DNA from: Deltaproteobacteria bacterium HGW-Deltaproteobacteria-6
Lineage (GTDB): Bacteria; Desulfobacterota; Syntrophia; Syntrophales; Smithellaceae
Assembly: GCA_002840435.1 (NCBI GenBank)
Contig: PHAT01000001.1
Location: forward strand, 490,300-554,299
Length of the DNA stretch: 64,000 nucleotides
Direction: 5' to 3'
Shown: positions 8,153 through 29,481 of the stretch, piece by piece
How positions within the stretch are numbered: the first letter of the stretch is position 1
Layout of the letters: every line of letters starts with the position of its first letter
Program-made: the position numbers and the translations under genes
Notes under the pieces: model-generated
The model's database searches: none
Told to the model about the DNA's origin: nothing
What the model saw: only the letters and a program-made list of their open reading frames with translations

Positions 8153-8251
8153 AAAATGTCCTGTTGACCGTCTCAAAATATTGGCACCGCATCAGTTATG
8201 GCAGATTCTCTATAAGAAAGAAAATAATGGTACCGTTCATTGTGTGAAGAA

Positions 8252-10224: not shown

Positions 10225-10234
10225 AAATCCTTAT

Positions 10235-11068: not shown

Positions 11069-11094
11069 TTATTCCTGATGATAATGATCGTATC

Positions 11095-13097: not shown

Positions 13098-13513
13098 CTT
13101 TCTTCCAGAAATTGCGTTTTATCGTTATCTCCTGCATAGGGACCCTGCTTGACTTCAATCATGGACGTTTCCTCCATCATCTCCAGTGAATGGCCGCCTC
13201 CGCAAAGCAGGATTATATCGCCTGTTTTAAGAAATTTCGCATCAATGAACTCATGGTTGGATGAAAAGAGGTTTACCTTGACTTTTCCCCGCTTGATGAA
13301 GAGAACCTCCTGTGTATAGAGAACCTGACGCACAAGGAGATTATGAACATGAGCGGAGATCTTGTGACCTGCAGGGCGCGTCATGGCGGCAACCTGCTGG
13401 GAAAAGTTGGCAGGCGTGAAGAAATGGATTCCCGGTTCATCGTATTCGGCGCGGATTATAAGGGCGATAGGCTCTATCCCGTGGGTGATGGTTTCAACAT
13501 CCTTATCGTTCAT
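13088..13513 (-). CDS. Cupin-fold protein of polysaccharide locus
   Basis: A 141-residue single-domain beta-barrel. ISAHVHNLLVRQVLYTQEVLFIKRGKVKVNLF and the later GDIILLCGGGHSLEMMEE stretch fit the two cupin motifs with metal-binding His and Glu residues. The tail VKQGPYAGDNDKT is seen in small cupins next to sugar aminotransferases. It is probably an accessory sugar isomerase or binding protein for the adjacent DegT enzyme, but no reaction can be assigned. It is the first gene of the tightly packed polysaccharide run; its upstream 160 bp gap should hold a promoter that I could not define. Confidence 0.65.
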   Translation of the reverse strand: MNDKDVETITHGIEPIALIIRAEYDEPGIHFFTPANFSQQVAAMTRPAGHKISAHVHNLLVRQVLYTQEVLFIKRGKVKVNLFSSNHEFIDAKFLKTGDIILLCGGGHSLEMMEETSMIEVKQGPYAGDNDKTQFLEESCT

Positions 13514-13677
13514 AATTGGTTATCTCCATACTTTTTTGTTTCCGGAATACAATTTTCACAATTGTCGGATCATGATTTGATGCATTCCAGATTCAGCTCC
13601 GCCCCGTGAGTTACATTAGTGACTGAAACTCTTGGTGCAAACCGGTGCTTTGCTGTGTCCTTTATTGCGTGAAACCG

Positions 13678-14229
13678 TTACTTCTTGTCCTGCCGCTCCC
13701 ACACCAGAAAGTACGGCCGGTTTTCCAGCGCAGGCATAAACGCCTTGAACTCTGTGCCGGTTAAGACTAGTGAGCGGATTTTGCGTTTGATATAGCGTTC
13801 AGTTTTTCTGCTTAAATCGTTCAGGTGATATTGGTCGATATTTCCCACCAGCACTAAATCTACAATTCCGGTATCCTTGCCTTCGGCATAATCATCGATG
13901 ATGTAGGCTTTCTCCAGATCTCCCAATCTTGTGAGGATGCTTTCAATAACCTGATCCAGTCCCATGACTTTGCTGACCATGGATCTCAGCTCAGGAAAAA
14001 GAGGATGATCGTTATTTGCAGTGTATAAAACGTTTCGTCCTTCTTTTTCCGAGGTGAGGAGCTTTGTTTTTGTAAGTTGGTTCAATTCTTCCCGGACTGC
14101 GTTGGACGATACATGAAGATCCTTTGAAAGCTCCCTGAGATAGGCTTTTGTGCCGGGATTGAAAAAAAAACGCACAAGCAGACTGATTCTGGTTTTTGAG
14201 GATATGAGTCCGGCAAAAAGGTCGGTCAT
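13678..14229 (-). CDS. wHTH transcriptional regulator with degenerate nucleotidyltransferase-like domain
   Basis: Residues 10-70 form an ArsR/MarR-like winged helix (YLRELSKDLHVSSNAVREEL, then a wing at LTSEKEGRNVLYTAN). Residues 105-165 resemble a MNT-type nucleotidyltransferase fold but the active site looks lost: a G-S is replaced by DDYAEG and only one aspartate remains. I chose ATG at 14229 because GGAG lies 7 bp upstream; the frame stays open further but would run across the promoter. A perfect inverted repeat over its -10 box suggests autoregulation. Location between the polysaccharide operon and a GT2 suggests control of surface glycan genes. Confidence 0.75.
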   Translation of the reverse strand: MTDLFAGLISSKTRISLLVRFFFNPGTKAYLRELSKDLHVSSNAVREELNQLTKTKLLTSEKEGRNVLYTANNDHPLFPELRSMVSKVMGLDQVIESILTRLGDLEKAYIIDDYAEGKDTGIVDLVLVGNIDQYHLNDLSRKTERYIKRKIRSLVLTGTEFKAFMPALENRPYFLVWERQDKK

Positions 14230-14242
14230 ATATGCTCCATTC

Positions 14243-14261
14243 TGAGTAGTTATCCTACTCA
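14243..14261. promoter_or_regulatory. Inverted-repeat operator at regulator promoter
   Basis: Perfect 7 bp arms TGAGTAG and CTACTCA separated by 5 bp (TTATC). The repeat overlaps the minus-strand -10 hexamer and ends 13 bp before the start codon of the wHTH gene. Dyads of this size at this position are typical autoregulatory operators. Binding by the adjacent regulator is an inference. Confidence 0.6.
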
Positions 14262-14285
14262 TAACACATGCAGAATAATTGTCAA
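14258..14285 (-). promoter_or_regulatory. Sigma70-type promoter of wHTH regulator gene
   Basis: On the minus strand a perfect -35 TTGACA (14280-14285) is followed after 16 bp by TATGAG (14258-14263). The transcript would start about 20 bp before the regulator's start codon, inside the inverted repeat, so repressor binding there would block transcription. Confidence 0.6.
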
Positions 14286-14478
14286 TCATTATTTGAGGGG
14301 GGAAGGTTTTCCGTAAGGCATGGTTTGCATTGATGAATACTGCGGATAAAATGCCTGGGTATTTCAAGATCGCTGTCCGATAGGTTTGGGGCCCGGCATC
14401 ATCAGCAGATGAGTCTCAGAGGCAAAAGGAGCCTGTAAGTAATGCGCAGTTGGATCGTGGCGTTCAGGGGAGGTTGAA

Positions 14479-15366
14479 TCAATCTTCTCTGCTTTCGCTT
14501 CTGTCGTAACGCAGCTGGGCGATCTGCTCCGATACGAGTCCCACCATGAAAATCACCACGGACATTGTGATGAGCATGGCCGATGTGGGGCCATAGCGGC
14601 CTTCCAGAAAAAGGATTTTGAACAGGCCATAGCCCACACCAGTGAGGAAAATGATTGCGCTCACCGGAAGGAAAACCCGCATGGGAGAAAAGAGGGTGGC
14701 GATCTTGAGGATAATCAGAAAAAAGCGAGAGCCATCCTGAAGCAGTTTTATCTTACTCTTGCCGATGCAGCGGTTTGTTGTGATGGGCACATATAAAAGA
14801 CTGTAACCAGACCGGAGGACTCCCATCGTGATGGTCGTCGGATAGGAAAAAGTATTTGGCAAAAGCGAAAGAAAATGGCGGGCAATATTTGTTTTAACAG
14901 CCCGGAACCCCGAGGTCAGGTCCTGTATTTTTCTTTTGCAGATATAAGACGCGAAAAGATTGTAGAATCCGTTCGCCAGGTTTCGATGCATGTAAGACTT
15001 GGAATCGCCGGTGCGCGCCCCGACCACCATATCGTACTTGTCGATATTTTTAAGCAGTTCAGGGATATCTTCCGGATTATGCTGGCCGTCGCCATCCATC
15101 ATGACGAGGATGCCTCCCATTGCCTGTCTGATGCCTGTCTTAACGGCTGCGCCGTTGCCGATATTGTACGGATGAGAGATTACCCGGGCGCCGGCATTTT
15201 TTGCACGAATGGCCGTTTCATCCTTTGAACCATCATTGATGACGAGGATTTCATAAGGGCGGTTCAATCGGTCCATCGTCAGCCGGACACGTCCGATGAC
15301 ATCAGCGATGATCGCCGCTTCATCATAAACCGGTATCAATATGGTAATATCCAGATCAGTATTCAT
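14479..15366 (-). CDS. Polyprenyl-phosphate-type family 2 glycosyltransferase with C-terminal membrane anchor
   Basis: A 295-residue DPM1/GtrB-like enzyme that usually charges undecaprenyl phosphate with a sugar. The GT-A domain has DITILIPVYDEAAIIADVI, EILVINDGSKDET and the metal site VMMDGDGQHNPEDI. Two hydrophobic segments near residues 228-250 and 260-285 give a C-terminal membrane hairpin, then a basic tail. It lies upstream of the regulator and the main polysaccharide operon on the same strand, separated from the regulator by about 250 bp. Such enzymes act in glycan modification or lipid-linked sugar donor synthesis. Confidence 0.85.
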   Translation of the reverse strand: MNTDLDITILIPVYDEAAIIADVIGRVRLTMDRLNRPYEILVINDGSKDETAIRAKNAGARVISHPYNIGNGAAVKTGIRQAMGGILVMMDGDGQHNPEDIPELLKNIDKYDMVVGARTGDSKSYMHRNLANGFYNLFASYICKRKIQDLTSGFRAVKTNIARHFLSLLPNTFSYPTTITMGVLRSGYSLLYVPITTNRCIGKSKIKLLQDGSRFFLIILKIATLFSPMRVFLPVSAIIFLTGVGYGLFKILFLEGRYGPTSAMLITMSVVIFMVGLVSEQIAQLRYDRSESRED

Positions 15367-15626
15367 TCAACATCCTCGGTATTTGCAAAAATATATATCT
15401 TTTATAATCGGCAATATCAAGTGTTATGGTTTGCAATGACCAAGAAAAATCACTCTGCCAGCCAAGTACGGCAAGGCAGAAAAACAAAATACTTAACTGA
15501 ATATGGAAACTCTGATATATTATTTGATCGAAGATGATCTTGTAAAAATGGATTATTCCAAGACCTATCGATTATGCACTCATTCTTTTTGGATAGCATT
15601 TCATAAAAAGGCGGGAGAGGATAAAC

Positions 15627-16976
15627 ATGTCGCTGATTGAAAAAATTATCGCCAGGGAAGCCAACCTTGGCGTAATAGGGCTTGGTTATGTTGGATTGCC
15701 GATCGTTATTGCGTTCTGCAGGGCAGGCTTCCCGGTTACAGGTTTCGATATCGATCCTGTAAAAGTGGGGATGCTGCGGCAGGGGAAAAGCTATATCAAA
15801 CATATAGACTTATCCTCAATAATGCCGGACAATGCTTCCGCCGGTTCAACACAAACTTCGGATCAAAAGCCGAAGATATCTTTTGCCGCAACTTCAGACT
15901 TCTCATTGCTCGCCAACATGGACTGCATTATAATATGCGTTCCAACACCGCTCGATAAGCATCGCGAGCCGGATATGTCTTTTGTATTCAATACGACGCG
16001 CTCCATCGCCGGTTACCTGCGGAAAGGACAGCTGATTGCTCTGGAATCGACCACTTACCCGGGAACAACTGACGAGGACATAAAAGCGATTCTGGAAGAA
16101 ACAGGATTAAAAGCGGGCATCGATTTTCACCTCGCTTTCTCTCCGGAAAGAGAAGACCCGAACAATAAGAATTATTCAACCGGTAACATCCCGAAAGTTG
16201 TCGGCGGTTATACGGCGCAATGTCTTAATGTTGCCGTTGCGCTTTATAATACGATAGTCGTGCGAACCATTCCGGTTTCATCGACAAAGGTGGCTGAAGC
16301 GGCAAAGCTTCTGGAAAATATCTACAGGTCGGTCAACATCGCACTGGTAAATGAATTGAAGATAATCTTCGATAAGATGGGCATTGATATCTGGGAAGTA
16401 ATTGAAGCAGCCAGTACAAAGCCTTTCGGATTTCAGGCTTTCTATCCGGGGCCTGGGCTGGGCGGACATTGTATTCCGATCGATCCGTTCTACCTGACGT
16501 GGAAAGTTCGTGAATTTGATTTTACCACCCGGTTTATAGAGCTGGCAGGTGAAATTAATACCAGTATGCCATACTATGTTGTGGATAAATCGACCGCGTA
16601 CCTGAACAGCAAAGGAAAATCAATGCAGGGCTCCCATATCCTCATCCTGGGAATGGCCTATAAAAAAGATATTGATGATCAGAGAGAATCGGCTTCACTA
16701 AAGATCGCCCGTCTTTTGAGGGAAAAAGGCGCTGCAATAGAATACAGCGATATGCACGTTCCTCATTGCCGGGGACACCGCCATTATCCCGATATCGATA
16801 TGAGTTCCGTTGAACTTACTGAAGACCGCTTGAAAAGCGCCGACGTGGTGCTTCTGCTGACCGATCATTCAGCCTTTGATTATGAATTTATTGAAAAGCA
16901 TGCCCAATGTATCATCGACACCCGCAATGCCTTCGCTAAGCGGGGTATCCAGAGCAAGAAAATCCGGAAAGCGTGA
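15627..16976 (+). CDS. wbpA: Nucleotide-sugar 6-dehydrogenase (UDP-GlcNAc/ManNAc type)
   Basis: NAD-dependent four-electron oxidation of a UDP-hexosamine to the uronic acid. The N-terminal Rossmann site is LGVIGLGYVGLPIVIAF (14-30) with acidic DID at 41-43. The middle domain has ENIYRSVNIALVNEL, and the catalytic cysteine is C282 in GGHCIPIDPFYLTWK. The C-terminal third (ILILGMAYKKDIDDQRES) is the UDP-binding domain. The K-x-x-x-I-D-D-x-R-E-S form and 449-residue length suit the WbpA/WecC/TviB group rather than UDP-glucose dehydrogenase; exact substrate is not certain. It is divergent from the GT2 gene and probably supplies the surface-glycan pathway. Confidence 0.85.
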   Translation: MSLIEKIIAREANLGVIGLGYVGLPIVIAFCRAGFPVTGFDIDPVKVGMLRQGKSYIKHIDLSSIMPDNASAGSTQTSDQKPKISFAATSDFSLLANMDCIIICVPTPLDKHREPDMSFVFNTTRSIAGYLRKGQLIALESTTYPGTTDEDIKAILEETGLKAGIDFHLAFSPEREDPNNKNYSTGNIPKVVGGYTAQCLNVAVALYNTIVVRTIPVSSTKVAEAAKLLENIYRSVNIALVNELKIIFDKMGIDIWEVIEAASTKPFGFQAFYPGPGLGGHCIPIDPFYLTWKVREFDFTTRFIELAGEINTSMPYYVVDKSTAYLNSKGKSMQGSHILILGMAYKKDIDDQRESASLKIARLLREKGAAIEYSDMHVPHCRGHRHYPDIDMSSVELTEDRLKSADVVLLLTDHSAFDYEFIEKHAQCIIDTRNAFAKRGIQSKKIRKA

Positions 16977-17017: not shown

Positions 17018-19168
17018 TCAGCGATCCACAAGTTGCCAGGAACTATTTACACTCACATTACCATCACCATCGGCATCTATATTTCCAGCACTCATGTAAG
17101 AAACAGAAGACAATGCCGCTGCTGTCGAACAAGAGTTGTTTGTATAAATATTAACGACAGACGCATCATTGTATCTGACCTGAAAATCGTTGCCGCTCCG
17201 TATTCTGGAACAGCTTCCATAATTTCCGCCTCGTACATAGAAGCTGCTGCTTCTGGAATTGCGAACATAGTATCGGTTGGGTAATACTTTAAAGCTTGCC
17301 TGGCAGGTGCTGCTTCCGCTGGTGTTTGAGACGTTTAATGTGAACGTCCTCTCTCCGGCATTGGTTTGAACTGCCGTGGTGCAGGAGCCGCCGGCAGGAT
17401 TTGGGCTTCCGCATGTGCCGCCGGGCGAAGATGTCCAACTTGCGGTTGCCGCACTGCCGGAAACATTCCATGTCAAAGCCGCTGTGCCGTTATATGGTAC
17501 TATATTCTGACCGGCCGTAAGCGTACATGAGGGAGGACCGGGAGTTTGTGTTATAGTGAAACTCTGGTCGCCGATCGAAATGGTGCCGGTCCTGAGTGCA
17601 CTGGTTGTGTTTTGGGTAATGCTGTAATTCACTGTGCCGCTGCCGGTTTTTTTGACATTATCATCTGTAACCGTTATCCAGGACTTATTACTATGTGCTT
17701 TCCATTGGCAGGATGAGAGCGCCGTTGTCACACTGACGGTGCCGGTGCCGGCGCTATATGTATGGGAAGCATTTGCCGGGGCGATGGAGATGGTGGGGAA
17801 ATAAATTGAAAAGTTAGTGATCGAAATGGTTTGTGTAACCGTACCGCTGCCTTCGGTAAAGCCGAAAAGAATGTTATTCAGCATATTACTGTAAGTTTCC
17901 GACAACGTAACGGTCCGGTTTATTTTAGGCGGATAGCTTGCATTGGAATACGGCGTATAAATGTCCTGAAAATATACGTATTCGCCGGCAGTGCAGGCGG
18001 TGAAAGGGGAATTGTTGATTTCGCAATCGACCCAGACTTTTATTTGATAGGTATATGCGGTTGGATTTCTGAGAACCTCAAGGCGGACCCGGTGCCATCC
18101 GGTATCTTCCATCCAATTGTATGTGCCGCCGTTTGCGGATCTTGATCGTTCATAATAACCGCCCAGTCCTGATCCATAGCCGCTTAAAGAAGAATTGTAT
18201 GGATTTGAGGTAGATCCATCACCTGCGCCATGATACGTGTCGTCCATAGACGCCTGAGGGTAAGAGCTCCCGGCGTTGGATCCGGAATAACACATAAAAG
18301 TCGATGCAGGATTCTTCCCCCAGAGCATCAAAGCAATATGGTTGCTTGTATTTCCGCCGCTGCCGCTGGTGTCATAGCTGCCTGCATTATCATACCGGCC
18401 GCTGGAACAAATGTCGCAGTATCCCGACTCACCGTTGGGGCAAGCGACGCAGTATGTGCTGTTATAACAGACGTTGCGGGTATTGCTTGGATACAAGTCA
18501 AATTCGACGGCAAACTTGGGAGGTTGCAGCCCCAGCTTGTCGGTTGTGTTGCCCGGTCCGGCATAACCCAGCAGGGATCCCATCGAGAAGCCGTTACTTG
18601 GAATACCGCCGCGGTCGGAAATCGTATTGTTGCCGGCGTTCATAACGGCAAAGGCAAATCCGTCGCCACCGGGCCCTAAAACACCATTGCTCATAACAGC
18701 GTCGCTCCGCGTGCTGGTATCCGCCAGCGTTTTAAATTCAAAATAAGCACGGAACCCGATTCCAAAGGGGCATACGCCGTCTGCACATGGATTGCACACG
18801 TTTGACGACGAACTGGAACCGGCATACCAGATAGCTCCCGACGTTTCACTTTCCGAGTTGATCAAGGTGATGGTTCCGCTTGCTGAATCAACGGAAATAG
18901 CCGTGTCGGTATTTTCAACCGGTGGAAATTCTTGTGCAGTAGTTGGATCAGTCAATGGCGTGGATGTGGATGTGTTCTGAGCATCCGTATCCGTTCCTTT
19001 TGATTTCCCGCTGACGCCAAAATTTTTCTTATCCTTTACGAGTGAACCCGATTGGTTATATTTATAAGTAGGTGAAGATGACGTCATGATTTTTTGCGCT
19101 GCGAGAGAAAATGCAGGTAAATAAAGACTAAATAATAAAGCAATTAAGATGGATAATATTTTATTCAT
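17018..19168 (-). CDS. Secreted multidomain lectin-like putative pilus adhesin
   Basis: A 716-residue exported protein with a Sec signal peptide (1-23, cleavage near SLAAQ). Residues 110-455 show L-type lectin/concanavalin-like hallmarks: GDGFAFAVMNAG (168-179), MGSLLGYAGPG (196-206) and KFAVEFDLYPSN (218-229), interrupted by a Cys-rich loop. Residues 463-543 look like a BACON/all-beta binding module (SWITVTDDN...RTGTISIG...FTITQTPG). Residues 547-628 look like an Ig-like module. The C-terminus ends in a calcium-loop-like DADGDGNVS. It is last in a cassette of four minor-pilin genes, so a pilus-tip adhesin is the natural inference. Ligand unknown. Confidence 0.7.
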   Translation of the reverse strand: MNKILSILIALLFSLYLPAFSLAAQKIMTSSSPTYKYNQSGSLVKDKKNFGVSGKSKGTDTDAQNTSTSTPLTDPTTAQEFPPVENTDTAISVDSASGTITLINSESETSGAIWYAGSSSSSNVCNPCADGVCPFGIGFRAYFEFKTLADTSTRSDAVMSNGVLGPGGDGFAFAVMNAGNNTISDRGGIPSNGFSMGSLLGYAGPGNTTDKLGLQPPKFAVEFDLYPSNTRNVCYNSTYCVACPNGESGYCDICSSGRYDNAGSYDTSGSGGNTSNHIALMLWGKNPASTFMCYSGSNAGSSYPQASMDDTYHGAGDGSTSNPYNSSLSGYGSGLGGYYERSRSANGGTYNWMEDTGWHRVRLEVLRNPTAYTYQIKVWVDCEINNSPFTACTAGEYVYFQDIYTPYSNASYPPKINRTVTLSETYSNMLNNILFGFTEGSGTVTQTISITNFSIYFPTISIAPANASHTYSAGTGTVSVTTALSSCQWKAHSNKSWITVTDDNVKKTGSGTVNYSITQNTTSALRTGTISIGDQSFTITQTPGPPSCTLTAGQNIVPYNGTAALTWNVSGSAATASWTSSPGGTCGSPNPAGGSCTTAVQTNAGERTFTLNVSNTSGSSTCQASFKVLPNRYYVRNSRSSSFYVRGGNYGSCSRIRSGNDFQVRYNDASVVNIYTNNSCSTAAALSSVSYMSAGNIDADGDGNVSVNSSWQLVDR

Positions 19169-19201
19169 AAATTTCTCCTGGTTGCCGGCCGCCAGAGTTC
19201 A

Positions 19202-20164
19202 TTATTCGCCGAAAGTTCCATTTGAGGTAAAACCAATAACCCTGCCCACATAGACGGGATTGATGTCTTTCTCGATACTTTGCAGGATATTCCATTTATT
19301 AGTGCTGTTAATGGATTGCATGTTGGTTAGTTTTACTGTTGTATTTGATGTGTCGATAATGCGTAAATCATACTGGTAAGAATATGAATTTTTATTCTTT
19401 ATAATGAATATTGCACCTTTTCGCGGCGGAAATAACTTTGCCGCGTCAAGATCCGTATATTTAAGAATTAAAGTGCTGCCTTCCGCGGAAGGCAGCGGCG
19501 GCACGACGGTGTAGTTGGCGCATCCTATATAAAATTCATCTCCTTCTAAAATATTTTCCGCAAATTCGGTCGATTCTACAGTGAATGTAAACGGTGTGCC
19601 GTCAGCGTCTGCGTCAGGTATGCCATCAGAGTTGGCATCAATAAAAGTAATGCCGGTATATGACGTGGAAGTATTCGTTGACCACGCGGGATCTCTATTT
19701 TCATCTCTAATAATCAGATAACCTTTGGAAGGAAAGGTCAGCTCTTTGTCCGTATCAGCATCCGCAGGCGGAACACCGCCCGGCAGATGGAGTTTAAGGG
19801 TAGTTGAAGTTGAACCGGATTTATCGGAAGACGTTACATAAAACCAGTACGGATTGCTCTTAATTTTTATTTTTCCATCGCTTCCGGGTATGCTGATTTG
19901 CATATTATGAAGAGCAACCAGCTTCGCATTTTTCTGCTCCGCGGCATTATACTCGCTTGCCGCAATCCTTATGCCCGATTCGGAAAGATAAAACGCCCGT
20001 GACGCCCGCTGGGCGACAACCTGATTAAACATGGCGGTGGACGTCAGCGCATAAATGGCGGCACCGATCGTGGCAATAGCGATCATGACGATGATGATCA
20101 CTAACAGGGTTGCGCCCTTTTGTCTGCTTTTTCCATTGACGTATTTTATTTTTAAAGCGTTCAT
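19202..20164 (-). CDS. PilX-like minor pilin/pilus assembly protein
   Basis: A 320-residue protein with the PilX_N pattern: short basic leader, KGATLLVIIIVMIAIATIGAA membrane helix (about 17-38), then RASRAFYLSESGIRIAASEY. It lacks the usual Glu5 of major pilins, as PilX-type proteins often do. The C-terminal 240 residues are beta-rich and of unknown function. Gene order FimT-PilV-PilW-PilX-large adhesin matches minor-pilin operons that prime type IV pilus assembly. It is paralogous to the plus-strand protein at 23498-24808, which shares RAYYVAESGINYAL. The start follows the PilW-like gene by 13 bp. Confidence 0.78.
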   Translation of the reverse strand: MNALKIKYVNGKSRQKGATLLVIIIVMIAIATIGAAIYALTSTAMFNQVVAQRASRAFYLSESGIRIAASEYNAAEQKNAKLVALHNMQISIPGSDGKIKIKSNPYWFYVTSSDKSGSTSTTLKLHLPGGVPPADADTDKELTFPSKGYLIIRDENRDPAWSTNTSTSYTGITFIDANSDGIPDADADGTPFTFTVESTEFAENILEGDEFYIGCANYTVVPPLPSAEGSTLILKYTDLDAAKLFPPRKGAIFIIKNKNSYSYQYDLRIIDTSNTTVKLTNMQSINSTNKWNILQSIEKDINPVYVGRVIGFTSNGTFGE

Positions 20165-20177
20165 TTTTTATCTCGGG

Positions 20178-20768
20178 TTACTGGATATTCGGTGCAGTAA
20201 TAATACCGCTTCCCCGGGGATTAATGCTGCTATGGAAATACAAAGGTGCGCTGTCGGGAAAATCCAAGGCAATCTGAATTTTTATGGTTGCCAGACTGTT
20301 CAGTCCATCTGTTGTGGTCCAGGTGCAACTGGCCGTTTCGTTTTGCTTGCAATAGCTGAGGAATGTTTTCCCGTCATTGCCGGCGTTTAAGCCGGCAATC
20401 AGAACCTGTGCGCCGGATACCAGGGGAACCGTATCAGTTGCTTCCAGGGTTAAATTTGTGCCGGTTCTTTTTATCCTGTATTGACATCCCTCATCCAATA
20501 AGCAAGATGGTGAATTTCTGGGTGTGGTGAAATCAATTTGATCGGCGGAAGCAAGGGATATGTTGGTAATATTAGTTAATTCTGTATTGAGGCGTGTCAT
20601 GGCCAACTGTGCTTTTTGTGAAGTCTGATTGGCATTTTGGGCAAAAAAATAACCCTGCACACCGTAAACGATCACGTTGCTTAAAACAAAAGCAACGATG
20701 CCCAGAATCATCAGCACTGCTATCAATTCGATTATGGTGAATCCCGGATTTTCTCTTAATCGTTTCAC
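20178..20768 (-). CDS. PilW-like minor prepilin
   Basis: A 196-residue prepilin. The cleavage and methylation motif is NPG|FTIIELIAVLMILGIVAFV, with Glu5 present, followed by the N-terminal helix. The segment QKAQLAMTRLNTELTNITN matches the corresponding region of the plus-strand protein at 22995-23495, so the two are paralogues. It carries two Cys pairs that may form disulfides. It lies 7 bp after the PilV-like gene and 13 bp before the PilX-like gene. It would be processed by PilD prepilin peptidase and built into the pilus base or tip. Confidence 0.78.
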   Translation of the reverse strand: MKRLRENPGFTIIELIAVLMILGIVAFVLSNVIVYGVQGYFFAQNANQTSQKAQLAMTRLNTELTNITNISLASADQIDFTTPRNSPSCLLDEGCQYRIKRTGTNLTLEATDTVPLVSGAQVLIAGLNAGNDGKTFLSYCKQNETASCTWTTTDGLNSLATIKIQIALDFPDSAPLYFHSSINPRGSGIITAPNIQ

Positions 20769-20775
20769 TTCACAC

Positions 20776-21171
20776 CTAATTGGTAAATATGCTCTGTAAA
20801 ATTTGTTGTCCGTCGGTCAAAGTAACAATAAGGACATTTTTCGTGACACCGGTGAGCGAAAAGGTACAGGAGGTATTGGCGGCATCAACAATACTTTTTC
20901 CATCAATCTGCAGATTATCAACATGAGATTCCTTGAAAGCGCATAAATCGACTGGGGTTTCTTCCGTGGCGCCATCCAGGGCCTGCCGGTATGCATGGGT
21001 CAGCAGTTCCATCTGCTCAATCAGTCGATGCTGTTTTTTTACGAGACCGGTGGAAATGGGGCTGTTTGTATAGGCGGTCCTCATATAAGTGATAAAAAGT
21101 GTTGCAGATATGGACACAATAATTATGATCACAATGACTTCAATGAGCGTGAATCCCATACTTCGCTTCAT
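20776..21171 (-). CDS. PilV/GspI-like minor prepilin
   Basis: A 131-residue prepilin with a six-residue leader (MKRSMG|FTLIEVIVIIIIVSIS), Glu5 and a hydrophobic helix. The short globular domain has two cysteines (LCAFKESH and TSCTFSL). Its start overlaps the stop of the upstream GspH/FimT-like gene by 4 bp. Its size and second position in the cassette match PilV or GspI. It aligns by position and by a C-terminal hydrophobic strand to the plus-strand gene at 22535-22984. Confidence 0.75.
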   Translation of the reverse strand: MKRSMGFTLIEVIVIIIIVSISATLFITYMRTAYTNSPISTGLVKKQHRLIEQMELLTHAYRQALDGATEETPVDLCAFKESHVDNLQIDGKSIVDAANTSCTFSLTGVTKNVLIVTLTDGQQILQSIFTN

Positions 21172-21707
21172 GGTATGTATCCCGTCAATGGCGTTATTTT
21201 TACGGCAACACTGGGAGAAGTGGCATTGAAAGGCTGGATGTTGATCTCCATGACACTCGTCAAAGGTGTTTTGGTTGTGACGTCAGTAAATGCCGAATAA
21301 GGAATCCCTCGATTGTCAAAATATATTGTGAAAGGCGACGTAATCTTTATTTTTTTCATATCAAGATTTATTCTCCTGTCGGAATCAATAAAATTATCGT
21401 CTTCCGGCAGTCGTATGGCATCTGCGATGTTTGTTCCTTTGAAGAGCCAATAACGGCTTCCATTACAGCTTATTCCACATATAACGGGAACGCCGGGAGC
21501 AGTGGGATTAGAATTCATGGCCATGGTTTGAGCATATCGCAGATGGGATTTTAAAGCATCCGCACCGGTATAGACTTCCGCATTATAATTGACGGAACGG
21601 CTGACGGCAATGGCCGACAAAATGCCGATTATTATCAGAACGGCAATAATCTCTATTATCGTAAAACCATATTTGTCTTTTAATATTTTCTGCAATCTTA
21701 TACTCAT
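21168..21707 (-). CDS. FimT/GspH-like minor prepilin
   Basis: About 179 residues when started at the ATG at 21707 (MSIRLQKILKDKYG|FTIIEIIAVLIIIGILSAI). The open frame reaches upstream to an ATG at 21977, but this would put an 88-residue extension before the prepilin leader, incompatible with PilD processing. An ATG at 21713 is equally possible. No strong ribosome site is visible for any of them. The GspH-type core includes SHLRYAQTMAMNS and IYFDNRGIPYS, and it ends in TGYIP, shared with TGFIP of its plus-strand paralogue. It is the first gene of the minus-strand pilin cassette. Confidence 0.72.
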   Translation of the reverse strand: MSIRLQKILKDKYGFTIIEIIAVLIIIGILSAIAVSRSVNYNAEVYTGADALKSHLRYAQTMAMNSNPTAPGVPVICGISCNGSRYWLFKGTNIADAIRLPEDDNFIDSDRRINLDMKKIKITSPFTIYFDNRGIPYSAFTDVTTKTPLTSVMEINIQPFNATSPSVAVKITPLTGYIP

Positions 21708-22091
21708 TTTCATTGCACAGGCCGTTTTGATAAAATTCTGCGTGGAGTTGATTAACGTAATGCATGATAAAACGGTCGGTGTTGTTATTATCAAAGCAAT
21801 AAATAATACTGGAAGAATCATCACTTCTTCTATACAGGTGTTAGCCGTAAAAAGACTGTATGTGAAGTAATCATATTCCATATACAAAATGATTATCTTT
21901 TGCGACTGGAGTATAGCTTTTTGTTTAAAAATATCAAGTGATATTTCCAGAAAGATCTTTAGGAAAAATGCAGTCAATATGATAAAATATTAAAGAAATG
22001 ATCGGCAAACAAACTTTACGGACGATGATTGGCGAGGTCAGATCTTTATGAGGAATTACTTTGTGAAAAACCCGTGGCGGTCAAAAATATA
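21708..22091. promoter_or_regulatory. Divergent intergenic region between two minor-pilin cassettes
   Basis: About 380 bp separate the FimT-like starts that I prefer on the two strands. It is AT-rich and must hold the promoters of both cassettes. I could not place a convincing sigma70 or sigma54 site. Open frames enter it from both sides, but neither extension looks like protein belonging to a prepilin. Confidence 0.4.
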
Positions 22092-22538
22092 ATGAGCAGA
22101 GCATATCTCAAAATCATTAAAAAACAGGATGGATTCACGATCATTGAAGTTATTGCTGTTTTTGTAATCATCGGCATTCTGGCGGCTCTCTCTCTCTCAA
22201 GAATCGCATCCACACAGAGTTATACCGCTTTATCGGAAGTGGATATCCTGAAAATGCACCTTCGCTATGCGCAGCTTCGCGCTCTTAGCGATGATAAAAC
22301 CTGGGGCATATCTTTTGCCGGGAATACCTATACTCTTTTGCGGGATGGAAGCGCCGCGCCATATAATTTACCGAATGAGGCTTCACCAACCCACACATTG
22401 CCCAACGAAGTAACTGTTTCCGGAGCTACCGTCACCTTTGATGAATGGGGCAGTCCGGGTGTCAGCGATATTGCGATCACCGTCTCACCAGGCGGAGGAG
22501 TGGTCACCATCATTAAGAATACAGGATTTATTCCATGA
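22092..22538 (+). CDS. FimT/GspH-like minor prepilin (second cassette)
   Basis: The 148-residue prepilin starts at the ATG at 22092 (MSRAYLKIIKKQDG|FTIIEVIAVFVIIGILAAL); the frame extends upstream to a TTG at 22029, which would lengthen the leader by 21 residues. The core has LKMHLRYAQLRALSDD and VTFDEWGSPG, the GspH fold pattern, and ends in NTGFIP. The same N- and C-terminal features occur in the divergent gene at 21168-21707, so this is a duplicated cassette. It overlaps the next gene by 4 bp. Confidence 0.75.
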   Translation: MSRAYLKIIKKQDGFTIIEVIAVFVIIGILAALSLSRIASTQSYTALSEVDILKMHLRYAQLRALSDDKTWGISFAGNTYTLLRDGSAAPYNLPNEASPTHTLPNEVTVSGATVTFDEWGSPGVSDIAITVSPGGGVVTIIKNTGFIP

Positions 22539-22984
22539 AAACGCAGGCGAAAGAAAAATCAACCGGCTTCACACTTATTGAAGTGATTATTACGCTTGTG
22601 GTTGCCGCTATTGTCGGCACAATGATGTTCACAACTCTGGGGTCATCCCTGACGAAAAGTTCGGATCCCTTCTTCCGCATGCAGACGTCTTTGGGTCTCC
22701 AGCGGGTTATGGAAAACTTCGTGACAGCTAACGAAAAATACTATGCCGGTGATCTGCCCGGGCTCCGGGCCGCAATTGCCGGGGTGTCGCCGGTACCGGT
22801 TAACGGAAATGAAGGAGCAACGCTAACCAACAGTTTTGGCACATATACCATTGTGGAAAACCGCTTTATCAAGTTTGTTTCAAACATGGAAGAAACTGCA
22901 GGCGCCAGTGATCCGCAAAATCTGCTTAAGGTGACCATTAAAAACAGCAATAACGAAACACTGACGTACATCTTTGCCGGGTAA
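22535..22984 (+). CDS. PilV/GspI-like minor prepilin (second cassette)
   Basis: A 149-residue prepilin with leader MKTQAKEKSTG|FTLIEVIITLVVAAIVG. The Glu5 is present and the helix is followed by a beta-rich domain ending TYIFAG. It overlaps the upstream FimT-like gene by 4 bp and its stop overlaps the open frame of the next. Its position matches the PilV-like gene of the divergent cassette. It is cysteine-free, in contrast to its counterpart. Confidence 0.75.
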   Translation: MKTQAKEKSTGFTLIEVIITLVVAAIVGTMMFTTLGSSLTKSSDPFFRMQTSLGLQRVMENFVTANEKYYAGDLPGLRAAIAGVSPVPVNGNEGATLTNSFGTYTIVENRFIKFVSNMEETAGASDPQNLLKVTIKNSNNETLTYIFAG

Positions 22985-22994
22985 AGGCTTGACG

Positions 22995-23495
22995 ATGAAA
23001 TACATTTTTAGAACAGAAAAAGGGTTCAGTCTGCTGGAAATGATTATTGTCATGATGATGATTGGCATTATGGCAGCTCTGGCCGCTTTGGGGTATGTTC
23101 AGGTCGTCAAAGGGATGGTCTTTACAAAAATGAATGCGGCTACCACTCAAAAAGGACAAATCGCCATAACGAAGCTGGTCAAGGAATTCGCTAATATCAG
23201 CATTAGTTCAATCAGCGCTGCCAGTGGGACATCCATCACTTTTCAAACGGTGAAGAACGGCGCATCCAGCCCCAGCACGACGGTAACGGTTTCAGGAAGT
23301 ACAATCACCTTCGGCGGAGATGTTTTAACAGACCAGGTGAGCGGATTTACGCTTAATTATTATGATAATTATGATAGTACAGCTCAAACCACCTGGCAAT
23401 CTTCACGGCGCATCATCGAAATCGCGATCAGGTTAACGGGGGCGGACGGCGTCGTTTCAGAATTCACGGCGCGGGTAAAACCGAGGAATTTATAG
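22995..23495 (+). CDS. PilW-like minor prepilin (second cassette)
   Basis: About 166 residues starting at ATG 22995 (MKYIFRTEKG|FSLLEMIIVMMMIGIMAAL); an upstream in-frame ATG at 22974 gives seven more residues. Glu5 is present. The segment QKGQIAITKLVKEFANIS is similar to QKAQLAMTRLNTELTNIT in the divergent cassette, which proves common descent for at least this pair. The C-terminal half is beta-rich and has no cysteines. It lies 2 bp before the PilX-like gene. Confidence 0.77.
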   Translation: MKYIFRTEKGFSLLEMIIVMMMIGIMAALAALGYVQVVKGMVFTKMNAATTQKGQIAITKLVKEFANISISSISAASGTSITFQTVKNGASSPSTTVTVSGSTITFGGDVLTDQVSGFTLNYYDNYDSTAQTTWQSSRRIIEIAIRLTGADGVVSEFTARVKPRNL

Positions 23496-23497
23496 AT

Positions 23498-24808
23498 ATG
23501 AACAAGATAAGAGATGAAAAAATGCGTCAAAAAGGAGCGGTCTTGATCACGCTGATTGTAGCCATGGTGATTACAACCCTGGCCGGAAGCGCCATGCTCT
23601 ATTATTCCACAACTTCCACCTATGGAGAGTTATTTACCAACCGGCAGGAGCGGGCCTATTATGTTGCAGAGTCCGGCATCAACTATGCTCTTCAAAAATA
23701 CCTTGCCAATAATGCCAATCTTTATCCCGAGTCCGCGCCCTTAACAGGCATTCTAAGCAATGGTGATCAATTTAAAGCCACGAGTGCTATCGTATCCAAA
23801 GGCAGTCCGGCTGCGGACTGGCTGGTGATTAAATCGACGGGAACCGCAGGATCAGGATGGCTGACAACCCGGCAACTTGTAACTAAGGAAATGAAAAAGA
23901 TATTGGCAACTCCCCCCGGATTGCCGCCCGTAACAACCGATTCCTCCGGTGTTCCCATCGGTTTCGATACGAATACCAATTCTGTACTGGATCCAACCTG
24001 GACCGAGGTTCCTAATCCGAACACTCAAGAGATTACATTAACCTCCGGAGGTGATCTTCTCTTTAAAGGGACAGAAGCAACCATTAATCTGAATCCAACG
24101 ACTGTTAATCTTTGTGAAGCATGGGCAAGCAATGGCAATCTTTCCAGTTATTTTTTACAGGTGAAGCTTAAGAATTCCTCTAACCCTCAACATTTTTTAG
24201 TAGGGCTTTCTTTCCGGGTGCGGGATGCTACCCTCAGCAGTGACAGCTACGGTTTCTCTTTCTTTCGGTATGACATCTCTAATAATTGCAACCGAGATTG
24301 GTGTAAGAACACCTACGGCGTCCAGAGAAATTTAAATGCAAACAGCAAAGTTTATGCCGTCCTTTGGAAAAGAGTATCAAATCAGTACACGATCCTTGCT
24401 TATGCCGAAATGGTTTCTTCCTATGGTGTTGTAAGTAATGGTGACATATTAGATTGGTCAGCTCTGTTAATTCGGGTGAATGAAAGATCTGATGGTAAGA
24501 ATTATATCAAAGCATACGTTAAGGCGCCAACCGTTCCGGCGACCGGAACAATCGATTGGAGTCTTTCCAACTTTAAACCGGTTGTATGGACCACAACTTG
24601 CACCCTGACTTCATGCACGCCAGTGACCCCGTTTACAGAGGTTGTCGACAGTACTTTTCTGTCATCCGGTTTTTGCAACGGCGCCACCCAGAATCGCCCA
24701 GAAATTGGTGTGCATGGTTTCTATGATGCGCAATGTAATAATTGCCAATTTTTTGATGATTTCGGCGTAGCAGTTATGGGAACAAGCGGCGGAAGCAGCC
24801 AATATTGA
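23498..24808 (+). CDS. PilX-like protein with large C-terminal beta-rich domain
   Basis: A 436-residue protein. The N-terminus has a PilX_N membrane helix (RQKGAVLITLIVAMVITTLAG) followed by RAYYVAESGINYALQKYLA, matching its divergent paralogue at 19202-20164. Residues about 185-430 form an extra domain rich in beta strands and aromatic residues (FLQVKLKNSSNPQHFLVGLSFRV..., ending CQFFDDFGVAVMG) that resembles a jelly-roll/LamG-type fold. In this cassette the adhesive-looking domain is fused to PilX, whereas the other cassette has a separate lectin-like protein. Start could be the internal ATG eight codons later. Function of the domain is inferred. Confidence 0.72.
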   Translation: MNKIRDEKMRQKGAVLITLIVAMVITTLAGSAMLYYSTTSTYGELFTNRQERAYYVAESGINYALQKYLANNANLYPESAPLTGILSNGDQFKATSAIVSKGSPAADWLVIKSTGTAGSGWLTTRQLVTKEMKKILATPPGLPPVTTDSSGVPIGFDTNTNSVLDPTWTEVPNPNTQEITLTSGGDLLFKGTEATINLNPTTVNLCEAWASNGNLSSYFLQVKLKNSSNPQHFLVGLSFRVRDATLSSDSYGFSFFRYDISNNCNRDWCKNTYGVQRNLNANSKVYAVLWKRVSNQYTILAYAEMVSSYGVVSNGDILDWSALLIRVNERSDGKNYIKAYVKAPTVPATGTIDWSLSNFKPVVWTTTCTLTSCTPVTPFTEVVDSTFLSSGFCNGATQNRPEIGVHGFYDAQCNNCQFFDDFGVAVMGTSGGSSQY

Positions 24809-24856: not shown

Positions 24857-25756
24857 ATGATGGGTAACTATCATGTCACATACTCAAAGCTTTTGGATAT
24901 CAGCGAAAAGTCCGATATCATCGCGGAGGTAAAAATTATCGCATCGCTGATTGCGCCTCGCTTTGACTTCAGGCATTTCGATGCGGCGTATCAGAATGTC
25001 GAGCGGTTATTTGACGGGACGTATGAAGGCTATCGCCAATGCAATACTCAGTATCACGATTTCGGTCATACATTAATGGTTTTGCTGGCGATGGCTCGCC
25101 TGATGCACGGCGCATCTTTGCAGGAGATCCATTTTTCAGAGAAGGACATCAATCTGGGTTTAATCAGCGCCCTGATGCATGATACCGGCTATATTCAATC
25201 CGCCGATGATTTTGTGGGTACAGGCGCAAAACATACACTCATTCACATCAGACGAAGCATTCAATTTGTTCAGCATCACTATAAAGACAATGATTATTTT
25301 GCCGGGGATATGAACAATTTCCGCGATATCTTAAACTGTACGGGTGTTCAAACAATGGTTGCCGATGTATCATTCAAATCGGATAATATCGCCCTGCTGG
25401 GTAAGATGCTGGGGACAGCGGATTTACTGGGCCAAATGGCAGACCGTTTTTACCTGGAAAAGCTGGTGCTCCTCTATAATGAATTTAAAGAAGGCGGCGT
25501 GCCGGGCTTTGACAGTGAAATTGATCTTTTCCGGAAAACCGTCAGCTTTTATAAATGGATAAAGGCACGATTTGAAAGTGAGTTTGGCAACGTCAGCCGG
25601 TTTATGATTTCTCACTTCAAAGAACGCTGGAATATCGACGGTAATGTCTATGAAGAATCGATTAATAACAACATCAACTATCTTAAATTTGTTCTCAAAA
25701 GCTCTCAGAAAGACATTTATCACTCCCTGCGCCGTAATGTGATTTCCTATCAATAA
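24857..25756 (+). CDS. HD-domain metal-dependent phosphohydrolase-like protein
   Basis: The 299-residue protein shows the HD-superfamily metal ligands QYHDFGHT (H67, D68, H71) and ALMHDTGY (H108, D109) in an otherwise helical domain. No GYP motif follows, so it is not a typical c-di-GMP hydrolase; it is closer to the HD/PDE family of cyclic-nucleotide or nucleotide phosphohydrolases. It sits 49 bp after the second pilin cassette on the same strand and may be co-transcribed with it. Substrate is unknown. Confidence 0.75.
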   Translation: MMGNYHVTYSKLLDISEKSDIIAEVKIIASLIAPRFDFRHFDAAYQNVERLFDGTYEGYRQCNTQYHDFGHTLMVLLAMARLMHGASLQEIHFSEKDINLGLISALMHDTGYIQSADDFVGTGAKHTLIHIRRSIQFVQHHYKDNDYFAGDMNNFRDILNCTGVQTMVADVSFKSDNIALLGKMLGTADLLGQMADRFYLEKLVLLYNEFKEGGVPGFDSEIDLFRKTVSFYKWIKARFESEFGNVSRFMISHFKERWNIDGNVYEESINNNINYLKFVLKSSQKDIYHSLRRNVISYQ

Positions 25757-26001: not shown

Positions 26002-27501
26002 GTGAATATTACGGTTAAAAAAGGAAATATTGCCGATTCAAAAACGCAGGCCATCATATTGGCTCTTTGTGAAGATGAAAAGAAGTTATCCGGTGATGCT
26101 GCACATATCGATCAAAAGAGCGGGGGAATGCTTAGCGATATTTTGAAGAGCGGTGATTTCAGCGCCAAAACGTCTCAAATATCAGTTATTTATACCAGAA
26201 ACTCAATCTCGGCCAAAAGAATCGCTCTGGTCGGTCTTGGCAGGAAGAGTGAATTAACCCTGGAAAAAATTCGCAATGCTTTTGCCAGGGTTATGCAGAA
26301 TCTGCGGGGGTTGAATGTTAAAGAAGCCGCGACGGTTATGGATTGGAATCTTCTGCACGGACATAAAGAAAAAATTATTGCCGCGGTGGCGGAAGGGGCC
26401 ATTCTGGGTCAGTATCAATACACGCCATATAAGACTGTCGGCCGTGATGAACTCAAAGATATGCGGTTGCTGGAAATTGTGGCGGCATCGAGGGATTATT
26501 CAGTGGTCCTGGATGAAGTCAAAAAAACGAACATCATTACCAATGCGGTTTATTTCGCCCGTGATCTCATTTCGGCGCCGGCCAATGAGATGACGCCTTC
26601 GATTATGGCTGAACATGCCATGAAAATTGCAAAAAGAAAAAATGTCTCATGCCGTGTGCTGGATAAAGGGAAAATGAAAGTATTGGGGATGAATGCTCTG
26701 CTGGGTGTGGCGGCAGGCAGCCACCAACCGCCAAAACTCATCATATTGGAATACACCGGCGGAAAAAAAGGCGATGCGCCGATTGTTCTTGTCGGTAAAG
26801 GTCTGACTTTCGACAGCGGCGGTATTTCCATAAAGCCTGCGGAAAAAATGGATGAAATGAAAACAGACATGTCCGGCGGCGCAGCGGTTATGGCAACAAT
26901 CATGGCAGTGGCCGATCTCAAATTACCAATCAACATTGTAGGCATTGTGCCGGCAACGGAAAACATGTCCGGCGGCGGCGCCTTGAAACCGGGAGATATC
27001 TTAAGATCGTACTCCGGTCAGACAATTGAAGTTTTAAACACGGACGCCGAGGGACGTTTGATTCTGGCAGATGCCCTGTTCTATGCATCCAAGTATAAAC
27101 CGGCGGCTATTATTGACATTGCTACCCTGACCGGCGGATGTGTTGTGGCGCTGGGTGAAGATGTGATCGGTATGCTCGGAACTGATGATCAGATCAAAAA
27201 AGAACTCAATCAGGCGGCGAAGATGACCGGTGAACTGGTCTGGGAACTGCCCCTCTGGGACAGCTATTCCGAATTGATTAATAGCGATATCGCCGATTAT
27301 AAAAACAGCGCCGGGCGTCTGGCAAGCCCGATCACGGCAGCGGCATTCCTTAGCAAATTTGTCGGAGGCTGTCCCTGGGTGCATCTGGATATAGCGGGGC
27401 CTGCCTGGACAAGCAAGGATAAAGCCTATATTCCCAAAGGCGCGTCGGGCGTGACAGTCCGACTGCTTTGTGAATATTTGCAGAATATTGTAAAAAAATA
27501 G
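26002..27501 (+). CDS. pepA: Leucyl aminopeptidase (M17)
   Basis: A cytosolic dimetal aminopeptidase that removes N-terminal residues from peptides. The 499-residue length is typical. The catalytic half has the M17 signatures LVGKGLTFDSGGISIKPAEK (metal-binding Asp and Lys), MKTDMSGGAAV and the family hallmark NTDAEGRLILADAL. The N-terminal 170 residues form the regulatory alpha/beta domain. Start is GTG at 26002, backed by AAGGAGG six bases upstream. The gene is followed after 2 bp by a pair of peptide-transporter ATPase genes, suggesting a role in using imported peptides. Confidence 0.95.
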   Translation: MNITVKKGNIADSKTQAIILALCEDEKKLSGDAAHIDQKSGGMLSDILKSGDFSAKTSQISVIYTRNSISAKRIALVGLGRKSELTLEKIRNAFARVMQNLRGLNVKEAATVMDWNLLHGHKEKIIAAVAEGAILGQYQYTPYKTVGRDELKDMRLLEIVAASRDYSVVLDEVKKTNIITNAVYFARDLISAPANEMTPSIMAEHAMKIAKRKNVSCRVLDKGKMKVLGMNALLGVAAGSHQPPKLIILEYTGGKKGDAPIVLVGKGLTFDSGGISIKPAEKMDEMKTDMSGGAAVMATIMAVADLKLPINIVGIVPATENMSGGGALKPGDILRSYSGQTIEVLNTDAEGRLILADALFYASKYKPAAIIDIATLTGGCVVALGEDVIGMLGTDDQIKKELNQAAKMTGELVWELPLWDSYSELINSDIADYKNSAGRLASPITAAAFLSKFVGGCPWVHLDIAGPAWTSKDKAYIPKGASGVTVRLLCEYLQNIVKK

Positions 27502-27503
27502 CT

Positions 27504-28493
27504 ATGAATTCTCTTCTGGAAATTAAGAATTTAAAGACGGTATTTTCAACGGGCAGAGGCATCATCAAGGCTGTTGACGGTGTTTCGCTGACTTTGAATG
27601 CCGGTGAAACGCTGGGTATTGTGGGAGAATCCGGATGCGGCAAAACCATGCTGGCGCTTTCCCTGATGAGGTTGATTCCGGTCAACGGCAAAATAGCCGG
27701 AGGCCATGTGTTTTTCGATGGTCAGGACTTGTTGTTATTATCCGAAGAGGCAATGCGGGACAAACGGGGCAGGGACATTGCCATGATCTTTCAGGAACCG
27801 ATGACATCACTCAATCCTGTCTTGCGCGTAGGCGAACAGATTGCGGAGGCGATCCGTCTGCACCAGCATGTTTCGAATGCGGAAGCGCTTGCCCTGAGCG
27901 AAAAGCTCTTGGGGGAAGTCGGCATTTCCGAACCCGAAAGAAGGGTAAAAGATTATCCTCATCAACTCAGCGGGGGCATGCGTCAACGTGTCATGATTGC
28001 CATGGCCATGTCGTGTCACCCCAAATTACTGCTGGCGGATGAACCGACAACGGCTCTGGATGTGACCATCCAGGCCCAGATTCTGAATTTGATTTCCGAT
28101 CTGAAGGAGAAGAATAATATGGCTGTTGTTCTGATCACGCACGATCTGGGGATAGTCGCCGAAGCGGCGCAAAAGGTGGCGGTCATGTATGCAGGCAGGA
28201 TTGTGGAGACTGCGGATGTTGAAAGATTATTTGCGCGTCCGCTTCATCCTTACACACGCGGGTTGATGGAGTCACGCCCCTCCGCATGTTCAGCTACGGA
28301 GACTTCAGGCGAAGCCTATTTAAAGACTATACCGGGAACTGTTCCCAGTTTATATGATCTTCCTCCCGGCTGCCATTTTTCCCCACGCTGCAACCTGGTT
28401 GAGGACGTATGCCGCGTTTCTGAGCCGGAGTTGCTGGAAATTGAAGAAGGTCATTTTGCCTCCTGCTTCATTGCTCAAAGAATCATAAAATAA
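27504..28493 (+). CDS. Oligopeptide/dipeptide ABC transporter ATPase (OppD/DppD-like)
   Basis: An ABC ATPase of 329 residues with Walker A GESGCGKTM, Q-loop and signature LSGGMRQRVMIAMA. Walker B is LLLADEPTTALD. The C-terminal oligo_HPY extension (HPYTRGLMESRP...PPGCHFSPRC...) with the Cys cluster that can hold an iron-sulfur centre is diagnostic of OppD/DppD. No permease or binding-protein gene accompanies it here, which is unusual. It starts 2 bp after pepA and ends 17 bp before the OppF-like gene. Confidence 0.9.
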   Translation: MNSLLEIKNLKTVFSTGRGIIKAVDGVSLTLNAGETLGIVGESGCGKTMLALSLMRLIPVNGKIAGGHVFFDGQDLLLLSEEAMRDKRGRDIAMIFQEPMTSLNPVLRVGEQIAEAIRLHQHVSNAEALALSEKLLGEVGISEPERRVKDYPHQLSGGMRQRVMIAMAMSCHPKLLLADEPTTALDVTIQAQILNLISDLKEKNNMAVVLITHDLGIVAEAAQKVAVMYAGRIVETADVERLFARPLHPYTRGLMESRPSACSATETSGEAYLKTIPGTVPSLYDLPPGCHFSPRCNLVEDVCRVSEPELLEIEEGHFASCFIAQRIIK

Positions 28494-28510
28494 GGAGTCC
28501 CATTATTCGC

Positions 28511-29476
28511 ATGGCGTCTGTCTTGATAGATATTCAAAAACTTGAAAAAAAATTTATCCTGGGCGGCGGATTTCTGCAAAGCAGCCCCAGGATTATCCGG
28601 GCGGTGGACGGTGTCGATCTGAAAATCTTTGAGGGAGAAACGCTGGGACTCGTCGGAGAGTCCGGATGCGGCAAATCAACGCTGGCGCGTTTGTTAATAA
28701 GACTGGAAGAGCCGGATGCCGGCGGCGCATACTTTAAAGATCAGAATATCTTTGCGCTTTCTTCAAAAGATTTAAAAGCCTACCGTCGCCGCGTACAAAT
28801 GATTTTTCAGGATCCGTATTCTTCGCTCAACCCCAGAAAGTCGGCAATCAGTATCATTCAGGAACCGCTAACGATTCATCGGATTGCCGACCGTGAGCAA
28901 AACAGGGAGACAGCCCGCAAACTAATGACCAAAGTCGGTCTGAACGAGGAGCAGGCCAAACGTTATCCGCATGAATTCAGTGGCGGGCAAAGGCAGCGTA
29001 TCGGCATTGCTCGATCTCTGGCGCTTCAGCCTGCGCTGGTTATTGCCGATGAACCAGTATCCGCACTTGATGCATCTATTCAGGCACAAATATTAAATCT
29101 GCTCAAAGATTTGAAAGAAGATTTCGGATTGACCTACTTGTTTATTTCCCATGATCTCAATGTCATTCGCCATGTCTCTGATCGGATTGCGGTGATGTAT
29201 ATGGGACGCATTGCCGAGCTGGCGAACACAAAGGATCTTTATGAAGCACCACTTCATCCTTATACGCGAATGCTGCTGGCGGCCATGCCATCCTGTGATC
29301 CGCAAAAGAAAAAAAGGGAAATGATGATTCGCGGAGAAGCGGGGGAGGCGGATGGCAAGGGGTGTAATTTCAAAAATCGTTGCGCCTATAAAATAGCTGT
29401 TTGTGAAGACGTGACACCGCAACTTCAGCCGAATCGTGAAAGCTTGTGTGCGTGTCATCGTGCAGGGGAAATTTAA
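28511..29476 (+). CDS. Oligopeptide/dipeptide ABC transporter ATPase (OppF/DppF-like)
   Basis: The partner ATPase (321 residues), with Walker [15 protein letters not shown], signature [17 protein letters not shown], Walker [13 protein letters not shown] and the C-terminal oligo_HPY region including the [15 protein letters not shown] Cys cluster. The start ATG at 28511 gives [11 protein letters not shown]. It would form a heterodimer with the upstream OppD-like ATPase. The absence of a neighbouring permease or solute-binding gene means the membrane partners must be encoded elsewhere, or the pair serves another ABC system. Confidence 0.9.
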
Positions 29477-29481
29477 CAGTC

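Follow-up and report, generated by a model that had tools for sequence, protein, structure and literature searches.

The window analyzed here, a stretch of 64,000 nucleotides from Deltaproteobacteria bacterium HGW-Deltaproteobacteria-6 (Smithellaceae; contig PHAT01000001.1, positions 490,300 to 554,299), harbors two minor-pilin gene cassettes, termed A and B, that diverge outward from a common centre and that each encode FimT/GspH-, PilV-, PilW- and PilX-like proteins, in this order. The centre spans 378 bp (21714-22091, 67% A+T) between the likely starts of the two fimT-like genes, which are corrected here to 21713 (A) and 22092 (B) with respect to an original prediction made from the sequence alone. 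The genes, strands and order from a shared centre given in that prediction are all present as stated, and so are the paired motifs it listed (TGYIP/TGFIP, QKAQLAMTRL/QKGQIAITKL and RAFYLSESGI/RAYYVAESGI).

Cassette A, on the reverse strand, comprises genes for FimT/GspH-like (21168-21713, in an open frame that extends back to 21977), PilV-like (20776-21171), PilW-like (20178-20768) and PilX-like (19202-20164) minor pilins; cassette B, on the forward strand, comprises their FimT/GspH-like (22092-22538), PilV-like (22535-22984), PilW-like (22995-23495) and PilX-like (23498-24808) counterparts, the last of which is a 436-aa protein with a long C-terminal extension. The prepilin N-terminal signal (N_methyl, Pfam cut-off 21.2 bits) is detected above the cut-off in five of the six FimT, PilV and PilW proteins (23.3 and 21.7 bits for FimT and PilW of A; 28.5, 26.3 and 24.7 bits for FimT, PilV and PilW of B), and the exception, the PilV of A, lies just below it at 21.1 bits. 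PilX_N (PF14341) has no match at E<=1 in either PilX, and the PilX-like name therefore rests on gene order, the [KR]G start and the ESG motif, to which cassette A adds the position of its protein within the A clade of the PilX tree; the PilX of B has no match to any Pfam family at E<=1. The span of cassette A also includes a fifth gene (17018-19168, reverse strand), which codes for a 716-aa candidate tip protein with a signal peptide (by eye), a conserved core, a BACON domain (26.2 bits; cut-off 25) and a PKD-like domain (20.2 bits, below the cut-off of 23.5). This gene has no counterpart in B (z 1.2 against the PilX of B), and PilY1 (PF05567) was not found among the ten cassette and neighbour proteins.

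Phylogeny of the two cassettes

Compared with 200 shuffles each, all same-position pairs of A and B proteins are significantly similar (z of 24.6 for FimT, 23.5 for PilW, 18.6 for PilX and 11.2 for PilV). Removal of the N-terminal prepilin segment leaves PilW (14.5), FimT (7.4) and PilX (7.0) significant and brings the PilV pair down to the level of its shuffles (z -0.7). Since crossed pairs also score by way of the prepilin segment (10.1 for PilV of A with FimT of B; 9.3 for PilW of A with FimT of B), the pairing of the two PilV proteins rests on gene order. The crossed pair formed by FimT of A and PilX of B retains a z of 4.9 without that segment, which counts against the specificity of the pairs.

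Relatives were drawn from a family sample of 51 genomes, in which G000 is the window genome, and trees were built for 48 cassettes, leaving out L088 (the second half of the second cassette of G010), L119 and the distant L090, L091 and L093-L095; the FimT of L063, which lies in two short frames, was dropped by length, and L070 and L086 have no PilX row. The concatenated tree places cassette A in a clade of eight members (100/100) and cassette B in another deep clade, of 17 (100/100), so that each has closer relatives elsewhere. The four single-gene trees hold A rows apart from B rows (98-99), and the eight-row A clade is recovered with supports of 98 (FimT), 99 (PilV) and 99 (PilX). The grouping of the window A and B cassettes as sisters is rejected (delta lnL 480.7, p 6e-61). 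Hence, the local duplication by which the original prediction had explained the mirror arrangement is refuted, leaving room only for a very ancient one. A scan of named genomes for the cassette returned seven loci, none of them close.

Cassette B is sister to that of G010, a genome of the same genus (100/100; 98 in the PilV tree), to which its PilW and PilX are 65% and 62% identical. The nearest kin of cassette A, on the other hand, are found in G027, G023 and G022, all of other genera (53-57% for PilW in G023 and G027), and a tree that joins window A to G017 and G006, which carry the A cassettes of the same genus, is rejected (delta lnL 48.2, approximately unbiased [AU] test p 5.6e-5). The flank genes HD, pepA, oppD and oppF keep the genus of the window together (100/100, 7 rows). 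Given this misfit of A with its own genus while the flanks hold the genus together, the A set was probably acquired.

Exchange of whole sets at a single site

On its right side, cassette B is followed by a gene for an HD-domain protein (24857-25756, forward strand; HD 20.7 bits, just below the cut-off of 22) and by a conserved flank of pepA-like and opp-type transporter ATPase genes plus one further gene (26002-30102, forward strand; 44-80% in relatives, names assigned by eye). The HD-domain protein, which constitutes the right-hand landmark of the site, is matched in 23 of the 51 family genomes at E<=1e-20, some of these matches being distant paralogues at 33-34%. In several relatives the cassette lies between this HD/pepA block and, on the left, the pilA region. 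The cassette beside the HD gene is A-type in G017, G006 and G021 and B-type in G010, G016 and G033, and it is a mosaic in G074 and G030, where PilX is fused to an A-type tip core. No cassette match is present between the pilA genes and HD in G072, which has a B cassette on another contig, and pieces of one B-type PilX stand at the starts of two contigs of G023, one leading to the HD gene, that are not joined.

The case for exchange is built on two pairs of genomes, G033/G074 and G016/G017, among 11 pairs compared. G033 and G074 stand near each other in the flank tree. Their flanks show identities of 84% and 88-90%, and the part of G033 between positions 8077 and 12326 lacks any nucleotide match at E<=1e-5. 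G016 (B-type) and G017 (A-type) are likewise close in the flank tree and are 84-89% identical in the right flank. Directly behind the B-type PilX of G016 (L064) lies a 44-residue relic of the end of a G017-type A tip gene (57%, E 3.7e-8; 71% and E 3e-9 at the DNA level), and G021 presents two further tip-gene fragments behind its intact tip gene. Both the relic and the fragments read as traces of replacement in place. As judged from these comparisons, close relatives differ at the site through the exchange of whole cassettes, presumably by recombination in the conserved flanks.

Two minor features were seen at these loci. Behind the relic in L064, an ATPase-like frame runs on the opposite strand, and in L063 (G010) a repeated sequence resembling an insertion sequence (IS; by eye) lies just upstream of the split FimT, at the contig end. 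No IS-like sequence of this kind was found in the window.

Pilus machinery and tip proteins

Locus L049, which lies on the contig to the left of the window, codes for a PilQ secretin, a probably ExeA-like ATPase, a PilB-type ATPase, a PilC/GspF protein, a sigma-54 regulator and two pilA-like pilins. In profile searches pilQ scores above its cut-off, the PilB-type ATPase has PilB as its best match but below the cut-off, and the PilC/GspF-type protein is below its cut-offs. A mannose-sensitive hemagglutinin (MSHA) pilus was considered and rejected, because the scores of the linked secretin point to PilQ (287.7 bits; cut-off 284.35) and not to MshL (100.6 bits; cut-off 250.2).

The conserved core of the A tip protein has a gene to itself in A cassettes, and four (L067, L100, L071 and L116) of the ten distinct open reading frames that hold it at E<=1e-8 join it to PilX; L125 repeats L098 and was not counted. 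Such fusions support a position of this protein at the tip, beside PilX. Cassette B, in turn, apparently carries its adhesin as an extension of PilX. Profile searches of solved structures gave nothing credible for either the tip protein or the PilX of B (best E 0.31 and 0.57).

The shared centre

The original prediction had also raised the possibility that the two tips are switchable. A sigma-70-like site for A can be recognized in the centre at 21937-21910 (10/12), in a region where the number of promoter-like sites is near chance (24 found; 17.3 expected, sd 3.9). A palindrome at 21929-21946 was rejected as an operator, since 39 of 500 shuffles were as good, and the upstream regions of window A, window B and six cassettes of relatives have no common stretch at E 0.05; neither a regulator nor a significant operator for the choice of tip was found. 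An inverted repeat of 25 nt (92%; 21132-21156 and 22131-22155) was also discarded as a switch element because it corresponds to the coding sequence of the prepilin motif. None of the inverted repeats listed around the cassettes exceeds 26 nt, the short ones standing without a shuffle test against chance. Searches of the genome yielded no serine recombinase (PF00239), and the window contains no tyrosine recombinase (PF00589), the nearest one on the contig lying ~51 kb from the cassettes. These results leave the switch idea unsupported.

A probable site for alternative pilus tips

Taken together, these data make it probable that this locus serves a type IVa pilus as the site of its tip cassettes, where a second, probably acquired set stands beside the resident one and provides the same pilus with alternative tips. 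The notion of alternative tips, already contained in the original prediction, gains support from the gene content, from the tip cores fused to PilX and from the precedent of Myxococcus xanthus discussed below. A broader proposal, which we advance tentatively as plausible and somewhat short of probable, is that the stretch from the pilA region to the HD/pepA block acts as a general tip-exchange site, where entire sets from deeply divergent lineages supplant one another throughout the family and leave scars behind. The window genome would then represent a rare two-set state, with a short centre driving two rival tips, foreign and resident, for the same pilus.

In the first, probable reading, the site between the pilA genes and the HD/pepA block would hold a single set, made up of four minor pilins and an adhesin-like domain, and comparison between species shows the replacement of whole sets there. 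The resident set of the window genome would be B. Set A, from a different and older lineage, would most likely derive from another genus of the family, the direction and route of transfer being conjectural, and its placement beside B in the opposite orientation would have resulted in both sets being read outward from the 378-bp centre. Each set may then form a predicted PilX-led tip complex that primes PilA assembly and displays an adhesin of its own, which would be the separate 716-aa protein in A and the PilX extension in B, and transcription from the centre would govern which tip is used. What a cell adheres to is decided by its pilus tips, and the replacement of cassettes between conserved flanks, with a scar, together with a genome holding two sets, makes tip exchange directly testable.

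Several observations weigh against the reading of the locus as an acquired set beside a resident one serving a single pilus. The grouping used in the test of window A with G017 and G006 was named after the larger tree had been seen, and the branch that parts window A from these two genomes receives only 88/89 in a smaller tree (99/96 in the 48-cassette tree). G016 is placed in the flank tree only through its HD gene (20% of columns), and on the left its contig stops short of the flank. Base composition, rejected as evidence of transfer, does not mark A as foreign: its pilins (43% G+C) lie within the range of the neighbours (42-48%), apart from the tip gene at 49%, and the B pilins are at 47%. 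Both structure models of the tip proteins are poor (pLDDT 31 and 36). The sole PilY1 match in the genome is on another contig, C10, and the A and B sets may thus be accessory. Upstream of this PilY1 gene (L051:7605-10853) there are pilin-like genes, possibly a third tip set.

Two further objections concern the sharing of a single fibre and lead to the possibility that the two sets work on separate filaments, each paired with a pilA of its own or with a different type IV machine. The two pilA-like genes (L049:7420-7839, reverse strand, and 8340-8729, forward strand) are divergent and only 44% alike, as opposed to the tandem pilA genes of G017, G006, G021 and G033, and the genome has three GspF/PilC-type systems. 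Nonetheless, single-cassette relatives also have two pilA genes (L059, L060, L061 and L065) and only one pilQ-B-C set is linked to the locus, which makes separate filaments decidedly unlikely. It is also conceivable that A and B were old neighbours in the family ancestor, most species having lost one and the window genome having kept both. Matches to the PilW profile at E<=1e-8 occur in 39 of the 51 family genomes, some being single pilin genes rather than cassettes, and by tree both types are found together in three (G000, G022 and G023). They lie on separate contigs in G022 and G023, and in G022 the A cassette is beside the left-hand TPR landmark and the B cassette beside pepA, in agreement with former adjacency. 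However, this co-occurrence is not clearly above chance (P 0.07) and was rejected as evidence, the scar in G016 indicates replacement and not mere loss, and window A stands apart in the tree from the same-genus A cassettes, so that we regard shared ancestry at the site as unlikely. Nor are both cassettes widely conserved as a fixed unit: among the 51 genomes they are seen to be adjacent only in that of the window, a result limited by the contigs of several relatives (G010, G016, G022 and G023), which end at the cassette.

A phase-variable inversion that picks the tip would be congruent with the orientation of cassette A, which is inverted relative to the usual direction, with the inversion of a whole block (an anti-sigma-like gene plus cassette) in G030 relative to the order in G074, and with the presence of short inverted repeats, one of which (19 nt, 95%; 15400-15418 and 27286-27304) encloses both cassettes. 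Yet the right arm of this repeat, for which no shuffle test was made, falls within pepA, and the shortness of all listed repeats and the recombinase results described above render such a switch highly improbable. As for a local inverted duplication, the identical gene order on both strands and the significant pair scores are outweighed by the trees and the AU test, in which A and B are not each other's closest relatives, and its probability is practically negligible.

Relationship to known systems

The occurrence of several tips per genome is already known. Pseudomonas aeruginosa possesses one minor-pilin set, with PilY1, and its FimU-PilVWXE/PilY1 tip complex resembles the cassettes described here in pilin types and, by gene order, in their roles. 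The mshC-D-O-P-Q genes of the MSHA pilus follow a similar order that ends in a large non-pilin protein, the linked secretin being the point of difference noted above. The closest parallel is provided by M. xanthus, which has three minor-pilin/PilY1 clusters beside one major pilin, each a FimU/PilV/PilW/PilX set with a large tip protein (PMC7541494). There, four minor pilins and PilY1 constitute a complex that primes the pilus and forms its tip, and the authors' model puts PilX beside the adhesin (PMC7541494). Either cluster 1 or cluster 3 by itself is enough for pili, and alternative tips have been proposed (PMC7541494, PMC9109919); a 2026 survey suggests a horizontal origin for PilY1.3 (PMC13190605). 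In contrast to those clusters, which are described as separate and each equipped with PilY1, the two sets reported here share one centre, PilY1 is in neither, and relatives swap whole sets at one site. Moreover, the gain of a tip set in M. xanthus was inferred from PilY1 trees, whereas here the replacement of whole cassettes is seen between the flanks of close relatives. A limited literature search found no report of whole-set exchange at one site with a scar, or of two rival sets around one centre.

Additional features of the locus and its relatives

The region between the pilA genes and cassette A (1-16976) is occupied by a polysaccharide cluster in which Pfam identifies glycosyltransferases, a Wzt/Wzm-type (ABC-type) exporter, a DegT aminotransferase and a UDP-glucose/GDP-mannose dehydrogenase. 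Polysaccharide genes, including DegT-type aminotransferases, recur near cassettes in L056, L057, L066 and L067.

Genes for extracytoplasmic function (ECF) sigma factors, recognized by eye, are located near many of the relatives' cassettes, with matches in 24 of the 77 loci scanned, some of these loci overlapping or being cassette-free (for instance L067:8200-8775 and 13213-13854, L100:2-490 and 662-1276, and L060:8374-8919). They are usually accompanied by a gene for an anti-sigma-like membrane protein, also recognized by eye, and it is between the sigma gene and the HD gene that the G030 block is inverted with respect to G074 (L067:8200-14287 against L100:1-4771). No such gene lies in the window, and a search of the window genome with an ECF sigma factor from beside other cassettes returned only matches of 26-36%.

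Finally, PilW and PilX form a single frame of 900-1360 aa in 14 loci of relatives (L073:6715-10422, L076:184-3510, L074:9825-13778, L079:10109-13807 and ten more), the 900-aa frame being cut by the end of its stretch. A CFI-box, a term for which a full-text literature search returned 0 papers, separates the PilW and PilX halves in all 14 fusions. Thirteen of these boxes were found by pattern, and the remaining one, in L079, by NCBIfam NF041770 (78.7 bits), a model that also matches L073 and L074. The box is absent from 35 of 36 separate PilW frames, of which at least L086 and L119 are also cut by the contig end; the exception, L070, is likewise cut. A hydrophobic segment after the CFI-box would lead the chain back into the cytoplasm. 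In 14 of 14 fusions the PilX helix is preceded by a [KR]G site that has S, A or G as its next residue. From these sequence features, the fused PilW-PilX appears to be a polyprotein of two pilins, with a hairpin that restores the topology.

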